Shown here: one piece after another, positions 7,773-33,112 of the stretch | How the letters are laid out: each line of letters begins with the position of its first letter | Numbering within the stretch: position 1 is the first letter of the stretch | IMG/VR virus record: IMGVR_UViG_3300044712_002001 | Coordinates: 1-37,980 of that record | Length of the DNA stretch: 37,980 bases | Origin: a virus | Strand: one strand, 5' to 3' | Notes under the pieces: generated by a model | The model's input: only the letters and a program-made list of their open reading frames with translations | Database searches by the model: none | What the model was told of the DNA's origin: nothing | Position numbers and translations under genes: made by a program

Positions 7773-9029
7773 TTATAAGTTAACTTTTGGGTTTTTTCTT
7801 TTTCGTTTTGGTATCTTAATAAGGTAATCAATAACCTTCCTTAATGCCTTATCATCCTTCTCCTGGTACCAGTCAATATAACCATCCGTCATGTCATTGC
7901 CATGGCCCAGAATATGCGCAATCACATCCTTAGGAGTATCAAGCTTCGCCGCCATGGTAGCAAACGAATACCTTGCAACATAAGTTGAAAGCCTCAGTGT
8001 TATTCCACAGGCATTGCCGGCACGGCGCAGATTCTTATTTGTGTTTTTCAGCAGATCCTTTGTTACATAAGCCTCCCTGTCGGCACGCGTAACAAGCTTC
8101 TTCTTTTCAATGTATTTGAGGAGGTATTCAGTTCCGGCATGTCTCTCAATAATCTCCCTCGCCTCCGGGTATATCCTGATGGAATACTCCCTGCTAGTTT
8201 TAAACCTGTCGTAAATAATCCGATCCTTATAGTAGTCGGCTTTTTTCAGGAAAAGCAGATCCTTAAAGTTTGTTCCACCAGTATAGAATATCAGTAAGAA
8301 CAGATCCACATCCCTTTGTTCTGCCCTTGTAAGGTAAGGCTGAGCCATAACAAGCCGCCTCATATCATTCCTGTCGATACTGCGGGGTTGTTTCCTCTCA
8401 CCTGATATCTTATACTTCCTGAACGGGAATAGCTGAATCTTTATCGTTTCCGTCTTATCTATGGCATGGTTGAAGATAGCCCTGATGTTGCACATGTAAT
8501 TCCGAATTGTGTTCACCGATGCCCCACCCGCTTTCAGGTGCTTCTCAAAACCCTCCAGAAAGGCAGGCGATATCTGTCTGAATAATATCTTCTCCTCACC
8601 GGCATACTCCTTCAGGTGTTTCAGCGTAACCGAGTATAGCTCCTCCATGCTGGTGCGCTTCTCTTTTCTCAGCTGTCTTATCCTCTCCCTGGTATATTCG
8701 CAGAAATCAGCCCCATTATCCGATCCCGATTTCAACCGGGCAACAAGAGTGGCCAGTGGCATATCCCTTATGGCAGTACCGATATCAGCAATAATATCAT
8801 TGTACTCATCCCGTAGCTGCAGCATAGCCCCGTTTTGAGTGGTGTGCCCCCTGTAGCTGCTTTTAATCCACCCGTCTTCGCTCATATACTTCGGATCAAT
8901 ATACCACACAGTTCCGATCATGGCAGTCTCATGGTTATGAACAACCTGCACCTTAATATTGGCAAGGCCATTCTTATTAACAATGAACTTACCTTTGCTT
9001 TTACGAACACAAAACTTAACAGAAGGCAT
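7773..9029 (-). CDS. int: Phage integrase, Bacteroidetes-type tyrosine recombinase
   Basis: 418 residues in three parts: an N-terminal arm-binding domain (about 1-100), a SAM-like core-binding domain (about 108-200), and a catalytic domain (about 215-400). Box II is YVARYSFAT with Arg353, followed by His376 in LGHG and Tyr384. The first catalytic arginine position reads GGTNFKDL (Asn254); I recall similar variants in this Bacteroidetes group, so it is probably still active. The attP with its arm repeats begins 22 bases upstream of the ATG, so integrase binding would also control its own promoter. It is convergent with the repressor pair. This is the most likely enzyme for lysogenic integration. 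Confidence 0.9.
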   Translation of the reverse strand: MPSVKFCVRKSKGKFIVNKNGLANIKVQVVHNHETAMIGTVWYIDPKYMSEDGWIKSSYRGHTTQNGAMLQLRDEYNDIIADIGTAIRDMPLATLVARLKSGSDNGADFCEYTRERIRQLRKEKRTSMEELYSVTLKHLKEYAGEEKILFRQISPAFLEGFEKHLKAGGASVNTIRNYMCNIRAIFNHAIDKTETIKIQLFPFRKYKISGERKQPRSIDRNDMRRLVMAQPYLTRAEQRDVDLFLLIFYTGGTNFKDLLFLKKADYYKDRIIYDRFKTSREYSIRIYPEAREIIERHAGTEYLLKYIEKKKLVTRADREAYVTKDLLKNTNKNLRRAGNACGITLRLSTYVARYSFATMAAKLDTPKDVIAHILGHGNDMTDGYIDWYQEKDDKALRKVIDYLIKIPKRKRKNPKVNL

Positions 9030-11897: not shown

Positions 11898-12815
11898 TTA
11901 TATTGGACTTGGAAAATTCAACTTAATCCTCTCATTCACAATACCGCAATGCCTCTTCAAATAATGTTCTGTTGCTGATAACCTTGTATGTCTCAGGTGA
12001 TCCATTAACTCCCTGATTGAAATGCCGCTCATGTGAAGAAGCGAGGCACCGGTATGTTTGAATGAATAGAACTTATAACCCTTTGGCAAACCCATACTAT
12101 CCCTGAACTTATTGAATCTCCACCGGAGCATATTAACAGAGATAGGCTTCTTCGCAAAGTTCCCCTTCCATCCAAAAATATAAAGCTGCTTGTCTGCCGT
12201 ATCAATACCGAAGTCCTTGCATATCTCAATCAACTGATCCGGCATCGTTACAGTCTGCTTCTTCTTGTTCTTTGCGTTCTCCTGGCGGACAGTAATGATC
12301 CCTTTCTCCAAATCGATATCGCCAACCTTCAGGAACCTTAATTCTCTTCCGGGCCTTATGAAACAATAGTATTCAATGTTACAGGCAAGATAAAGCTGCG
12401 GATCTTCTTCTTTGATTTTAAGCAGTAAAGGTTTCAGGTGCGATGGATGTATCATTTCCGCTCCCTGGTCTTTCTTCTTCCGGGGAAGTATGATGCCCTC
12501 AAAAGGAATTGTTTCAATCTCACCTCGCTTCAGGGCATACTTGAATACCTGTTTGATATCCATTACATACCTTTCAACAGTCGGCTTATCAAGACCAACA
12601 TCTTTGCCGAGATGATAAAAGAAGTCCCTGATGTTGTCTGCTGTGAGCTTCCTTAAGGGAACATTATCCAGGTGATTTTCTTCCAGCCAATCTTCAAACA
12701 CCCTGCACTGACCCTGGTAACCCACAAAGGTTCTCCTCTGATCCACCGATTCTTTCATCATCAGGAATCCCGGTGCCAGGTCTTTGAATGTTTTATATCG
12801 TCTGAAAATTGCCAT
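11898..12815 (-). CDS. Third tyrosine recombinase, with variant catalytic box
   Basis: 305 residues: a SAM-like core-binding domain (about 12-95) and a catalytic domain (about 120-300). Arginine I is in FIRPGREL. Box II reads YSFKHTG, so the usual His and Arg are Tyr250 and Lys253. His276 (LRHT) and Tyr285 (EHYLKR) are present. I recall similar box II variants in other Bacteroidetes recombinases, so it may be active. It lies between the tail spike and lysis genes, far from attP. Candidate roles are DNA inversion affecting the spike or cargo acquisition. I saw no clear inverted repeats around the spike gene. Confidence 0.85.
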   Translation of the reverse strand: MAIFRRYKTFKDLAPGFLMMKESVDQRRTFVGYQGQCRVFEDWLEENHLDNVPLRKLTADNIRDFFYHLGKDVGLDKPTVERYVMDIKQVFKYALKRGEIETIPFEGIILPRKKKDQGAEMIHPSHLKPLLLKIKEEDPQLYLACNIEYYCFIRPGRELRFLKVGDIDLEKGIITVRQENAKNKKKQTVTMPDQLIEICKDFGIDTADKQLYIFGWKGNFAKKPISVNMLRWRFNKFRDSMGLPKGYKFYSFKHTGASLLHMSGISIRELMDHLRHTRLSATEHYLKRHCGIVNERIKLNFPSPI

Positions 12816-29397: not shown

Positions 29398-31062
29398 CTA
29401 CAAAAACCTCAACGAATGATCCTTATAAATCTCCTTATCCTCCCCCGTAGTAATAGTCAAATGTTCGCCCAGCGCAATAATAGCCGCAACCACCCCGTCG
29501 ATCTTCTCGCTGCTCCGCTTCTTATCGGGCGATATATTATAGTTCTTGTCAATGTACACAACCACGTTGCGCATCTGCCACCTTAGCACCGGGTTATTAA
29601 AGTGCTCCAGCTGCCCGCTTATAACAAGCTTCTCAAACTCCTTCGTCGGAGCGCTCATATTAACATGCGCCTGCGAGTACGGGTCGAGCCTTCCAACCGG
29701 AAAACCCCCCTTAATAATATTCTGGATCGTGCCATGATGCGCCATGTGAGGGTCGTATGCGAAGCCCGTAACATCAAACCCCTTCAGAATCTCAAGCACA
29801 TCCTGGCTCAGAAAGTCCGGATCAATAACCCCGCCCGGCACAATAGTCACATGTCCCTCCTTGGCCCAGCGCTGGTAGTCAACACGGTCCTCCTTCTGTT
29901 TTGCTTTTTCCTCCGGAAGCCAGAACCACCACCTCATAGCATTAAACTCAGGGAAGTACAGCGCCAGCGAAGTAAGGTCAACATGCGATGAAAGGTCGAG
30001 CCCCGCCGTGCACTGCTTCCCCGCCAGGTCGTCGATGTTCATACCACGCGTGCAGGCCATCCACTTCTCATCCGGAATCCATACCTCCGGAGCATCAACC
30101 CATAAATTAAGGTTCTTTGTTTTAAAGCTTACCTCCTTCGTTGAAGAGTTCAGCGCCCCCTGGAACTCAGCCATAAACCTGTCGGGCAGAACGCTCACCC
30201 CCCAGTTCGGGTTCGCCTTTCTCCACATCAGCGGATCCTTCCAGTCGTCACCCTCATCGAGCGTGTATATAATAGCGAAAGTATCATCCTGCTTTTTGAT
30301 ACCCTTCAGAATCTCAATGCAAAGATTGCGGTACTCGTAGCACGGCAGGTTCTTATCCCTCCCCGAAGTAGTAATAATGAAAATCAGCGGCTGAGTCCTG
30401 TTAACCGTCGCCGACTGAATATTCTCGAACACCTCATAGTTCTTCCAGGTAAACACATGGAACTCATCAAAGATCGCCCCGTGCGGGTTAACCCCTTCAA
30501 TACTCTCTGAGTCGCGGCCAATAGGCTCCATCTTCGAGCCCGTAGCCGCAATACTGATGTTCTTCGTCAGAACCCTGGCACGCTTTGCCAGCGCCGGAGA
30601 TTTCTCAATCATCCTCTTCGCCTTGTCGAAGCATATCCTCGCCTGCTTCTCCATAGTGGCAGCACAGTAAACCTCGGCCTCCTCCTCCTTATCCCAGAAG
30701 AAAAGCTCATTGGCAATAAACGAAGCGAAAGTAGTCTTCCCGTTCTTCTTCGGAATTTCAATATATGCATAGTTGAACCGCCTCGTGTTATCCTTCTTCT
30801 TCCACCCGTAAACAATATAGATAATGGCAGCCTCCCATCCCTCGGGAATAAACGGCACCCAGTTGCGCTTGTCAGGACAATGCTTCACAAACTGCCCGAA
30901 CGAAAAAGCATACTCAGCCGCCCGCTTGTCGAAGAACCACCCATTCTCAGGCGCAACCACAAGATCGCGCTGGTGCCTCTCGAAAGTAAGCCGCGTAGTA
31001 GCGCTCACCACCACCTTGCCCGAAAGCACATCGTTAATATATTTCTCAGCCGCTTTAATCAT
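29398..31062 (-). CDS. terL: Terminase large subunit (Terminase_1 type)
   Basis: 554 residues from the ATG at 31062. ATPase: Walker A-like EIPKKNGKTTF (about 102-112) and Walker B HGAIFDEFHVF (about 194-204), followed by the coupling ITTSG. Nuclease: acidic GLDLSSHVDLTSL (about 354-366), YDPHM, and KIDGVVAAIIA near the C-terminus. It cuts and translocates DNA into the prohead. It is separated from the small subunit by 6.4 kb of extra genes, which is unusual. An ATG 24 bases upstream is also possible. Confidence 0.95.
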   Translation of the reverse strand: MIKAAEKYINDVLSGKVVVSATTRLTFERHQRDLVVAPENGWFFDKRAAEYAFSFGQFVKHCPDKRNWVPFIPEGWEAAIIYIVYGWKKKDNTRRFNYAYIEIPKKNGKTTFASFIANELFFWDKEEEAEVYCAATMEKQARICFDKAKRMIEKSPALAKRARVLTKNISIAATGSKMEPIGRDSESIEGVNPHGAIFDEFHVFTWKNYEVFENIQSATVNRTQPLIFIITTSGRDKNLPCYEYRNLCIEILKGIKKQDDTFAIIYTLDEGDDWKDPLMWRKANPNWGVSVLPDRFMAEFQGALNSSTKEVSFKTKNLNLWVDAPEVWIPDEKWMACTRGMNIDDLAGKQCTAGLDLSSHVDLTSLALYFPEFNAMRWWFWLPEEKAKQKEDRVDYQRWAKEGHVTIVPGGVIDPDFLSQDVLEILKGFDVTGFAYDPHMAHHGTIQNIIKGGFPVGRLDPYSQAHVNMSAPTKEFEKLVISGQLEHFNNPVLRWQMRNVVVYIDKNYNISPDKKRSSEKIDGVVAAIIALGEHLTITTGEDKEIYKDHSLRFL

Positions 31063-31087: not shown

Positions 31088-31137
31088 CCCTAACATCCGA
31101 TAGCAGTAACTTTGCTACTGCTATCAGGTAGTTAGGT
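31088..31137. repeat. attC-like palindrome next to the large terminase gene
   Basis: CCCTAAC (31088-31094) and GTTAGGT (31131-31137) form the outer pair. GATAGCAGTA (31099-31108) and TACTGCTATC (31116-31125) form a perfect 10-bp inner stem with a 7-base loop, and short unpaired spacers lie between. This is the R''-L''-loop-L'-R' plan of integron attC sites with RYYYAAC/GTTRRRY-like ends. A further 12-bp inverted repeat (31128-31139 with 31180-31191) joins it to the next half-site. Confidence 0.55.
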
Positions 31138-31181
31138 TGCATGGCACGGGCCGTACCCCGCAAAAGTCTTGCACCACGACA

Positions 31182-31201
31182 ACCTAACTACAGGTAGAAG
31201 C
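31182..31201. repeat. attC-like half-site left of the zinc-ribbon gene
   Basis: ACCTAAC (31182-31188) followed by CAGGTAGAAGC (31191-31201). Its GGTAGAAGC pairs perfectly with GCTTCTACC at 31593-31601, on the other side of the 104-residue gene. Confidence 0.5.
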
Positions 31202-31226
31202 AAAAAAGCCCCTGCGCACAACGGCT

Positions 31227-31541
31227 CTACCGAGCCGGGACGGTTGGGCCGCTGGTTTGTAGGTTCATAAAGATTCCGTTTTCATAGGACACTCCAAGTT
31301 TTTTAAGCCTTTCCGTTGCATCCTCAATCGTGTAAACAGCATCCGTAATCTGGTCTTTAAGTTCAGATATTTCTTCATCCCTTTCGATCTCAGCTTCTTC
31401 TTCTCTGCCACACTTCGGACAGATTACTTTGTTCGGATACCACTTCTCTGATCCGTGACCATCGTTAAGATCAAACCATCCTCCGCAATGCAAACAGGGA
31501 GTTGGCATTTCCATTTCTTCAGATAATTCCATGTCTTCCAT
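31227..31541 (-). CDS. Cassette gene: small zinc-ribbon protein (104 aa)
   Basis: An acidic protein with two Cys-x2-Cys pairs, PCLHCGG and VICPKCGRE (about 16-46), then a coiled-coil-like helix. The last codons and the stop lie in a hairpin (CGGCTC/GAGCCG, 31222-31237) shared with the end of the 136-residue gene, so its C-terminus (PTVPAR) is encoded by repeat sequence. The gene is flanked by half attC-like sites. Function unknown; zinc ribbon suggests nucleic-acid binding. Confidence 0.65.
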   Translation of the reverse strand: MEDMELSEEMEMPTPCLHCGGWFDLNDGHGSEKWYPNKVICPKCGREEEAEIERDEEISELKDQITDAVYTIEDATERLKKLGVSYENGIFMNLQTSGPTVPAR

Positions 31542-31592
31542 TTTACTCGTATTTTAAATTAGAAACTAAAAATTCCTTCGCTTCGCTTTTCT

Positions 31593-31615
31593 GCTTCTAC
31601 CAGTGTCCGTTATGG
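31593..31615. repeat. attC-like half-site right of the zinc-ribbon gene
   Basis: GCTTCTACCAGTGTCCGTTA at 31593 onward, ending in GTTATGG (31609-31615). The same words recur at 32446-32466 (CTTCTACCAGTGTCCGTTAG), so the two junctions share ancestry. Confidence 0.5.
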
Positions 31616-31689
31616 TTAAAGCAACGCATGAGCTAAACCGTCCCTGCATGCGCTCCCGCTCGGTTTCTCCGAAACCGTGATGGAAAACA

Positions 31690-31725
31690 AACCACTGCAC
31701 CTGCAAAAAAGCAAGTGCAATGGTT
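31690..31725 (-). terminator. Hairpin after the 74-residue cassette gene
   Basis: A 15-bp stem, 31690-31704 with 31711-31725, and a loop of six A (plus strand). The two imperfect positions become G-U pairs only in minus-strand RNA, the direction of the genes. A T-rich stretch follows on that strand. It is probably a terminator or an mRNA-stabilising hairpin. A second hairpin, CGGTTTC/GAAACCG, lies at 31661-31677. Confidence 0.6.
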
Positions 31726-31732
31726 ATGTTAA

Positions 31733-31957
31733 TTACTTCACTACCGGCCATTGCCACTGATTTGGTCCGTCTCCCTGGTGTACTGAAGTTACCCAAAGAT
31801 CATTTTGTCCATCGGTGATAACTTTCAAATTCACCATTATGTCAGACCACACAGCCACTATTACAGCAGGTAATTTTTCTGACTTGTTACCATTGACCTG
31901 ATTTTTCATGTAATCAGGCATGTTAAAAATTACGATTCTTCCAATTGTTGGCTCCAT
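31733..31957 (-). CDS. Cassette gene: small hypothetical protein (74 aa)
   Basis: MEPTIGRIVIFNMPDYM, then AVIVAVWSDIMVNLKVITDG and DLWVTSVHQGD. Proteins of this kind are frequent in phages and integron cassettes from environmental bacteria, with no known function. The fold is probably a small beta barrel. It is AT-rich like its neighbour at 31994-32293, with which it appears to form one two-gene unit (36-base gap without a palindrome). Confidence 0.65.
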   Translation of the reverse strand: MEPTIGRIVIFNMPDYMKNQVNGNKSEKLPAVIVAVWSDIMVNLKVITDGQNDLWVTSVHQGDGPNQWQWPVVK

Positions 31958-31993
31958 TTTGTTACCGGATTTTACAACGCCCGTCCAAGGCTT

Positions 31994-32293
31994 TTATATT
32001 TCAGGGATGTCAATTGTTTGCCCCGCAAATTCATGAGTGCAATCATTACAATACTGGATTTTACCATTTGTGACATATAAATGACATCTTGATTTTACTA
32101 TATCGTATTCACCTGTTTTTTCATTCTGTACCTTTAATTGGTTAAGTAGCGACGGTGTAAATGAAGGAAGTTCCATATTACCATTAAACGTCCATCCGGT
32201 GCCATCACTATTAACGGGGTAAGAGTGTTGATGCTTACAGCCCGGACAATAGAATGAATAATACTCTACAACTATTTTTTTAATTTTTGCCAT
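31994..32293 (-). CDS. Cassette gene: DUF6527-like zinc protein (99 aa)
   Basis: YYSFYCPGCKHQHSYPV gives a Cys-x2-Cys pair. A second ligand group is SRCHLYVTNGKIQYCNDCTH near the C-terminus, followed by FAGQTIDIPEI. The ending matches what I recall of DUF6527-type proteins. Probably binds zinc; role unknown. AT-rich compared with phage structural genes. Confidence 0.65.
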   Translation of the reverse strand: MAKIKKIVVEYYSFYCPGCKHQHSYPVNSDGTGWTFNGNMELPSFTPSLLNQLKVQNEKTGEYDIVKSRCHLYVTNGKIQYCNDCTHEFAGQTIDIPEI

Positions 32294-32370
32294 ATCTATT
32301 TAATTCAATTTTAAACCTTGACTTTTGGCAAACCCGCCCATCCCTGCAATTCATACACCCTGCCGCTTGA

Positions 32371-32466
32371 CTCTAACCATAACTACAGGTACAAGTAATG
32401 CCGGCTCAAATCCATGCCACCGTGATAGGCTAACTCCGGCACTCCTTCTACCAGTGTCCGTTAGGC
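32371..32466. repeat. attC-like palindrome between the MazG-like and DUF6527-like genes
   Basis: Outer ends: GTTAGGC (32460-32466) and CCATAAC or CTCTAAC (32371-32383). Inner arms CAGGTACAAGTAATGCCGG (32386-32404) and CCGGCACTCCTTCTACCAG (32436-32454) pair over 19 positions with a few mismatches, as in attC sites. A CGGTTC/GAACCG hairpin (32512-32527) follows the upstream gene's stop, as at 31222-31237. Confidence 0.6.
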
Positions 32467-32533
32467 AAAATGCAAACCGTGATTTGGCATTCCCGCAATG
32501 CTTTCCGCACACGGTTCTATCGAACCGGGACTG

Positions 32534-32944
32534 TTAATACCGCTTCCCATGTTTAAAAGGTCTCGTTGAATTATATCTTAATTTTAAATCAATATGCTTT
32601 TCAATATTGATTCCAAGGCCACCACATAAATCAAATAGACGAATAAATGAGTCTGCTATTTCATCCTCAAACGTGTCTTTAATTGTTGTTTCAAATCTGT
32701 TTTTAATCCAATCACAATTAATATTTTCAGATTCAAAATCAGATATCGACAATCGCCCGCATTCCATTGAATGCTCAAAAGCATTGAGCATTTCTCTCCT
32801 ATCTTTCCTGTCTGCCTCTAAAGCCTCTGAAAGTTCTGATACTACAAGCATTAAAGTTTGTCCGATATTTTCCTTTGAAACATCGAAGCCACGAAGTTTA
32901 TTCCCTTCGTAAATTTGTTTTGATAATTCATTTAAATTATTCAT
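32534..32944 (-). CDS. Cassette gene: MazG-like nucleotide pyrophosphohydrolase
   Basis: 136 residues. The MazG metal-binding pattern is clear: VVSELSEALEADRKDR (about 33-48) and EDEIADSFIRLFDLCGGLG (about 92-110), then the typical ending NSTRPFKHGKRY. It should hydrolyse non-canonical or excess NTPs to NMPs, a house-cleaning role. MazG enzymes are known from Vibrio integron cassette arrays as well as from phages. Much richer in A/T than the adjacent glycosyltransferase gene, suggesting separate origin. Confidence 0.8.
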   Translation of the reverse strand: MNNLNELSKQIYEGNKLRGFDVSKENIGQTLMLVVSELSEALEADRKDRREMLNAFEHSMECGRLSISDFESENINCDWIKNRFETTIKDTFEDEIADSFIRLFDLCGGLGINIEKHIDLKLRYNSTRPFKHGKRY

Positions 32945-33024
32945 TGTTTTTATTTTAAATTAAACCTTGATCTTCTAACCGCTCGCCTTCCGCACAACCA
33001 TTCACCTTTGCCGTTTGCACTCTT

Positions 33025-33112
33025 GCCTAACAACAGTGTATGTGTAAGCCGTGATACCCGCAAACCCCCACCGTGATAAAGCCCGGCCTCCACATACACC
33101 GGTCCGTTAGGT
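33025..33112. repeat. attC-like palindrome after the glycosyltransferase gene
   Basis: Ends GCCTAAC (33025-33031) and GTTAGGT (33106-33112) match the integron R''/R' consensus RYYYAAC/GTTRRRY. The inner arms GTGTATGTG (33036-33044) and CACATACAC (33091-33099) pair perfectly over 9 bp. Spacers of 4 and 6 bases are unpaired. The 46-base centre carries CCGTGATA twice. It begins 4 bases beyond the glycosyltransferase stop codon. This is the best attC-like site in the window. Confidence 0.65.

Follow-up and report, generated by a model that had tools for sequence, protein, structure and literature searches.

A block of small genes lying between a glycosyltransferase gene and the large terminase gene (TerL) of a Bacteroidetes-type phage is best read as a CALIN, an array of attC cassettes without an integrase, here running in the direction of the late genes. 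We put the probability of this reading, which includes the inference that an integrase recombines these sites, at roughly 0.85. The window that we analyzed is the entire viral record IMGVR_UViG_3300044712_002001 (37,980 bases). In it we observe attC-type sites and cassette boundaries and no integrase in cis; in its relatives we observe exchanged genes and empty junctions. Present-day mobility of the cassettes and their transfer between hosts are not proven. The initial annotation had suggested a CALIN-like cluster at this position, and that suggestion is supported by site scores above shuffles and controls, by changed gene content in relatives, and by the missing integrase.

Organization of the cassette block

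Read along the minus strand, the block follows a GT2 glycosyltransferase gene (33704-33117; PF00535, 2.9e-6) and consists of attC-A (33112-33025), a MazG-like gene (32944-32534), attC-B (32466-32377), a DUF6527 gene (32293-31994), a 74-amino-acid gene (31957-31733), attC-C (31615-31182), a gene-free body of 58 nt, and attC-D (31137-31088), after which TerL begins at 31059 (29398-31059, minus strand; PF20441, 5e-39, and PF03354). The genes of the block have the orientation of the phage late genes. The four small AT-rich genes described initially are indeed minus-strand open reading frames, with a GC content of 32-44%; the window as a whole has 45% and TerL 51%. An Rfam scan of the window at gathering cut-offs returned nothing, no tRNA genes were found in the window, and no annotated phages with DNA similarity to it were found.

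Each cassette would begin with the TT of a core site and end with the G of the following one. On this basis, cassette 1 (32383-33030, minus strand, core G/TT to core G/TT; cognate ends GTTAGGCAA / TTGCCTAAC) holds the MazG-like gene and attC-B. The MazG-like assignment proposed earlier is upheld by PHROGs, where the protein matches a nucleotide pyrophosphatase family (phrog_9236, 4e-31), but it finds no match in Pfam, NCBIfam, or PDB sequences. Cassette 2 (31188-32382, minus strand; cognate ends GTTATGGTTA / TAACCATAAC) contains the DUF6527 gene (PF20137, 3.7e-12; phrog_3362, 5e-30), the 74-amino-acid gene, which belongs to a phage family of no known function (phrog_19300, 1.2e-11), and attC-C. 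The loop of attC-C encloses a further open reading frame (31227-31541, minus strand) for a 104-amino-acid protein with CxxC pairs; it has no clear family in Pfam, PHROGs, or NCBIfam, and the PADLOC match to PDC-M14A (2e-4) is only weak. Cassette 3 (31094-31187, minus strand; cognate ends GTTAGGTTG / CAACCTAAC) comprises the gene-free body and attC-D. Small, similar hairpins of the CGGYTC or ATCACGG...CCGT type stand just past the stop codons of cassette genes and are common to unrelated genes, in the window (31219-31245, 31660-31682, and 32476-32530) as well as in relatives. The words noted initially as shared by the junctions, among them the reverse complement of CCTAACGGACACTGG and ATCACGG, are true repeats.

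attC sites of the window

Sites were scored with a scanner written for this analysis, which looks for R'' (RYYYAAC), R' (GTTRRRY), and an L''/L' stem and is neither IntegronFinder nor a published covariance model. The palindromes of the initial annotation are present, and two of them score as attC. attC-A (R'' ACCTAAC at 33112-33106, R' GTTAGGC at 33031-33025) reaches 35.1, with DNA fold z values of -3.0/-4.1, and attC-B (R'' GCCTAAC, R' GTTATGG), which has near-identical copies in the viral loci L006 and L031, reaches 28.3. Elsewhere in the window the best score is 9.9. Both sites also exceed the maximum of 26.9 found in 100 dinucleotide shuffles of the window, which gave a mean of 0.03 sites scoring at least 25, and scores of at least 28 arise at a background of 0.8 per Mb in 1.24 Mb of unrelated viral loci. 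As a control, the scanner was applied to Bacteroidota genomes, where it recovered attC-like sites beside true IntI genes, and it did the same in MK672802, a Vibrio integron phage whose sites score about 18-26. By this scanner, then, the window fulfills a requirement of a CALIN, two or more attC sites whose R''/R' and L''/L' pairing exceeds background, and the outcome that would have refuted the initial annotation, that no palindrome scores as attC, did not occur.

Some details of that annotation change. The second site was of the attC type as proposed, but its boundary shifts from 32371-32466 to 32377-32466, since homology places its R' box at 32377-32383. The site at 31088-31137, now attC-D, is a near-perfect terminal hairpin with fold z values of -4.6/-5.1, but it receives no attC score from the scanner and is atypical; it is the last site of the array. 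One site was missed altogether, namely attC-C (R'' CCATAAC at 31615-31609, R' GTTAGGT at 31188-31182), which carries a whole gene in its loop. The bottom strand, here the window's plus strand, is the one expected to recombine. On it, attC-A and attC-D are predicted to fold into the attC hairpin as DNA, whereas the attC fold of attC-B is not the minimum-energy structure.

Complementary cassette ends

The core site with which an integron cassette begins is complementary to the R'' box with which it ends, since the two come together as one attC when the cassette is excised as a circle. We compared these cognate ends in 14 cassettes from five arrays (the window, L006, L031, L023, and L163). In all 14, including the window's three, roughly the first 9-10 nt counted from the core are complementary, which fulfills a further property of a CALIN, that the two ends of each cassette match. 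The words themselves vary among cassettes (GTTAGGTTGC, GTTAGGTAAC, GTTAGGCGCA, GTTATGGTTA, GTTAGTACAA, GTTATTGGCA, GTTAGGGTTA, and others). In the window's family, complementarity usually breaks off at position 10 or 11, often with G at the start against T at the end. True integron control arrays agree over 8-13 nt, counting only pairs in which both neighboring sites were evidently called correctly. We had considered long end complementarity a special feature, and we dropped this idea because ordinary integrons show the same. We take the agreement of cognate ends as the strongest single evidence for integron cassettes.

This evidence also bears on a simpler explanation, in which the genes are ordinary morons separated by terminators or REP-like palindromes. 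The cassette genes do come from common phage families, and ATCACGG...CCGT-type hairpins also stand past their stop codons. Terminators would not be expected, however, to have R''/R' boxes, unpaired spacers, and matching cognate ends, nor does a T-tract follow the sites in the sequence read, and the same sites flank other genes in relatives. We regard this explanation as highly improbable.

Gene content in related phages

A search of IMG/VR found ten TerL relatives. The initial annotation proposed an array of exchangeable content between the glycosyltransferase gene and TerL, an idea that fixed gene content in related phages, with palindromes decayed into ordinary terminators, would have refuted. 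Instead, the relatives differ in the genes between such sites. In L006, whose TerL is 88% identical, a copy of attC-B and the same attC-D lie ahead of TerL with a DNA methyltransferase gene between them. In L007 and L023, the stop codon of the glycosyltransferase homolog overlaps the start codon of TerL, leaving a cassette-free junction. The arrays of L031 and L023 occupy a second position, behind TerL and the next gene (80-85 amino acids) and ahead of the portal gene. A D-type hairpin closes all four phage arrays (window, L006, L031, and L023). Since relatives have the same sites with different genes, integron cassettes are evidently carried and rearranged by phages that have no integrase themselves. 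The cargo, MazG-like here and DNA methyltransferases in relatives, may help the phage against host restriction or nucleotide-based defence.

Beyond these relatives, an exact-arm pattern run over GTDB genomes matched a single contig, 3,650 bases long, from a Bacteroidetes metagenome-assembled genome (MAG). The contig is entirely cassette array and has a gene in common with L031; whether it is chromosomal or viral is undecided. In 393 genomes of the MAG's order, the pattern AACGGAC..GTAGTTAKG gave real palindromes in the MAG contig only. Other patterns were of limited use in IMG/VR: matches to TAACGGACACTGGTA were mostly due to chance, with L031 and L023 real; those to CTACCTGTAGTTAG were mostly chance among the matches listed; and of those to GGTGTATGTGNAGGCCGG, L250-L252 were chance and L253 was real. 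L253 (450-1560) is a different phage with tRNA genes and a methyltransferase cassette between attC sites, and the right arm of its last attC is cut off just ahead of a tRNA-Met gene. A separate arrangement is found ahead of TerL in L012 (2298-3886), where the window has the upstream genes and the cassettes. It consists of a reverse-transcriptase gene beside repeated GFGFS-type variable proteins, which resembles a diversity-generating retroelement, and the same context is likely in L008-L011.

Absence of an integron integrase

Another property of a CALIN, that no integron integrase lies nearby, is fulfilled as well, and lacking intI the array is not a complete integron. As the initial annotation stated, the contig has no integron integrase: all tyrosine recombinase matches in the window are below threshold, the best to TIGR02249 reaching 47.6 bits against a cut-off of 265, though the record is possibly a fragment. 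The window does encode three different tyrosine recombinases (248-1156, 7773-9029, and 11898-12815). No integron integrase was found in 50 viral records with such attC sites; the controls in that search were silent too, and the search is shown to work by its matches across genomes of the matching MAG's phylum. There, IntI above the curated cut-off occurs in 105 of 395 genomes, and an integrase is thus available in trans within the phylum. The MAG's own order has it in only 2 of 198, so the actual donor is undetermined. On another contig of the MAG (G001:C187), a 561-amino-acid recombinase was tried as IntI and rejected, being below the cut-off and without a match to model positions 179-238. 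At L176:2660-3000, this tyrosine recombinase, which has an extra N-terminal region, adjoins a tandem array of TTAACAGCTTAACCAAAAAGG-type repeats.

Could a tyrosine recombinase encoded by the phage, rather than an integron integrase, move the cassettes? The window offers three candidates and no IntI, yet none of the three reaches the IntI cut-off, and homologs of the gene at 248-1156 adjoin TerL where no such attC was found (L012 and the prophages L271 and L272). Phage attC sites have also been reported to be recombined by IntI1 (PMC9892861). We consider this route unlikely. On the CALIN reading, cassettes would be captured by recombination at attC sites through an integrase that a host provides in trans and that acts on the sites as folded single strands, and the promoterless genes would be read from the phage late transcript, for which co-orientation is the only observation. 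Counting against a CALIN are the rarity of IntI in the MAG's order, the fold of attC-B, the atypical attC-D, and the presence of unrelated genes within near-identical cassette ends.

Genes in attC loops and exchanged genes

Genes in attC loops are inferred from two cases, attC-C of the window (439 nt with flanks) and site 2 of L023 (344 nt). In both, the L'' and L' halves flank the gene and the arms pair over about 20 nt; pairing beyond the conserved part has a p of about 0.04 in the window and 0.025 in L023. The outer boxes follow the cognate rule with their neighbors, as in a single attC. Standard attC pipelines limit attC length to about 200 nt and would miss such sites.

A second feature concerns genes replaced within kept ends. 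Cassette 2 of the window and cassette 3-4 of L031 agree in roughly their first 55 nt and last 45 nt, with unrelated genes between, and the same is seen among L006, L031, and L023. Conversely, the MEAEKFESW gene of L023 recurs in L031 in a cassette with other ends. Together, these cases indicate that genes and ends recombine separately, which, as far as sequence comparison can tell, suggests that homologous recombination today accompanies integrase action or has replaced it. Homologous recombination at common cassette ends would add gene swapping to cassette capture.

It is possible, then, that these are former attC sites and that genes are now exchanged by ordinary homologous recombination between phages at the shared palindromic ends and attC sites, with no active integrase. 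Unrelated genes in near-identical ends (window and L031; L006, L031, and L023) fit this process better than cassette exchange, and the MEAEKFESW gene in different ends, the lack of IntI in 50 viral records with such sites, and its scarcity in the MAG's order agree with it. Three observations are less easily accommodated: the cognate ends match in every one of the 14 cassettes despite their varied words, a pattern that requires selection or circles formed recently; arrays occupy two different genome positions; and IntI genes occur across the phylum. We hold this possibility open without favoring it. It does not conflict with an integron origin and bears solely on the mechanism at work today. 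A comparably tentative proposal is a variant cassette system of Bacteroidetes phages, which would carry genes in the loops between attC sites as well as in those of the attC hairpins (window 31182-31615 and L023 site 2) and exchange unrelated genes within conserved ends. Genes and recombination frames would then be shuffled independently of each other, with integrases borrowed from hosts.

An attC subtype in other viruses

Sites in L031, L163, and L253 have in common the 11-nt loop TCGTTTTAATG on differing stems. This hairpin pattern occurs in at least 119 IMG/VR stretches (L273-L390). No integron integrase is present in any of about 46 such records checked. Among the matches listed, many sites bound cassettes of about 150-830 nt, AACG stands just upstream in 98 of 123 sites, and GTT just downstream in 113 of 123. 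At inner stem positions not fixed by the pattern, these same listed matches show covariation (34 cells with two-sided change, 10.6 in shuffles) and 95.9% pairing (77.7% in shuffles); a cognate 9-mer lies upstream of 30 of them but downstream, as a control, of 3, and a 10-mer of 13 versus 0. In Bacteroidia genomes such sites are rare (2 of 295 and 0 of 59). Polaribacter phage P12002L has the subtype on both sides of one methyltransferase gene, and site 2 of L031 and site 2 of L163 are of the same subtype. A CALIN with two methyltransferases has been described in P12002L by Qi et al. (2023; PMC9892861), and we infer from gene context that the sites found here are theirs. In that study, one of two P12002L attC sites tested, and five of six phage sites overall, are reported to have undergone IntI1-mediated recombination with attI1. 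The sites of the window itself belong to related subtypes whose loops differ.

Relation to known integrons and implications

CALINs in phages have been published before, as has the activity of phage attC sites with IntI1 (PMC9892861), and the array of P12002L is the closest parallel, with attC-bounded cassettes lacking intI in a Bacteroidetes phage, methyltransferase cargo as in the window's relatives, and the TCGTTTTAATG-loop subtype that L031, L163, and L253 also have. The window differs in that its array lies between two late genes; within this one phage lineage, some relatives have an empty site and a second position is also occupied. It differs further in having a gene inside an attC loop, and its own loops are longer and without TCGTTTTAATG. 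Sedentary chromosomal integrons, both of the Vibrio type and in intI-adjacent Bacteroidota arrays, resemble the window in R''/R' boxes, L stems, co-directed cassettes, and cognate ends, but the window lacks intI, no attI or Pc has been recognized in it, and its array is short and set in a phage late operon. Cassettes are also inserted outside integrons, at attG-type or secondary sites. Arrays that stand where attI is absent could have been founded in this way; in the window, we recognized no attG target at the junction.

New here, and well supported, is the late-operon setting, recurrent in one phage lineage; genes in loops and genes swapped within kept ends may represent a variant of CALIN. 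The finding places an integron cassette array within the late gene block of a phage lineage, with exchange that can be seen among close relatives, and connects it with an attC subtype present in more than 100 viral stretches. Phage transfer of integron cassettes between hosts, the identity of the acting integrase, and the carriage of genes in attC loops can now be tested.
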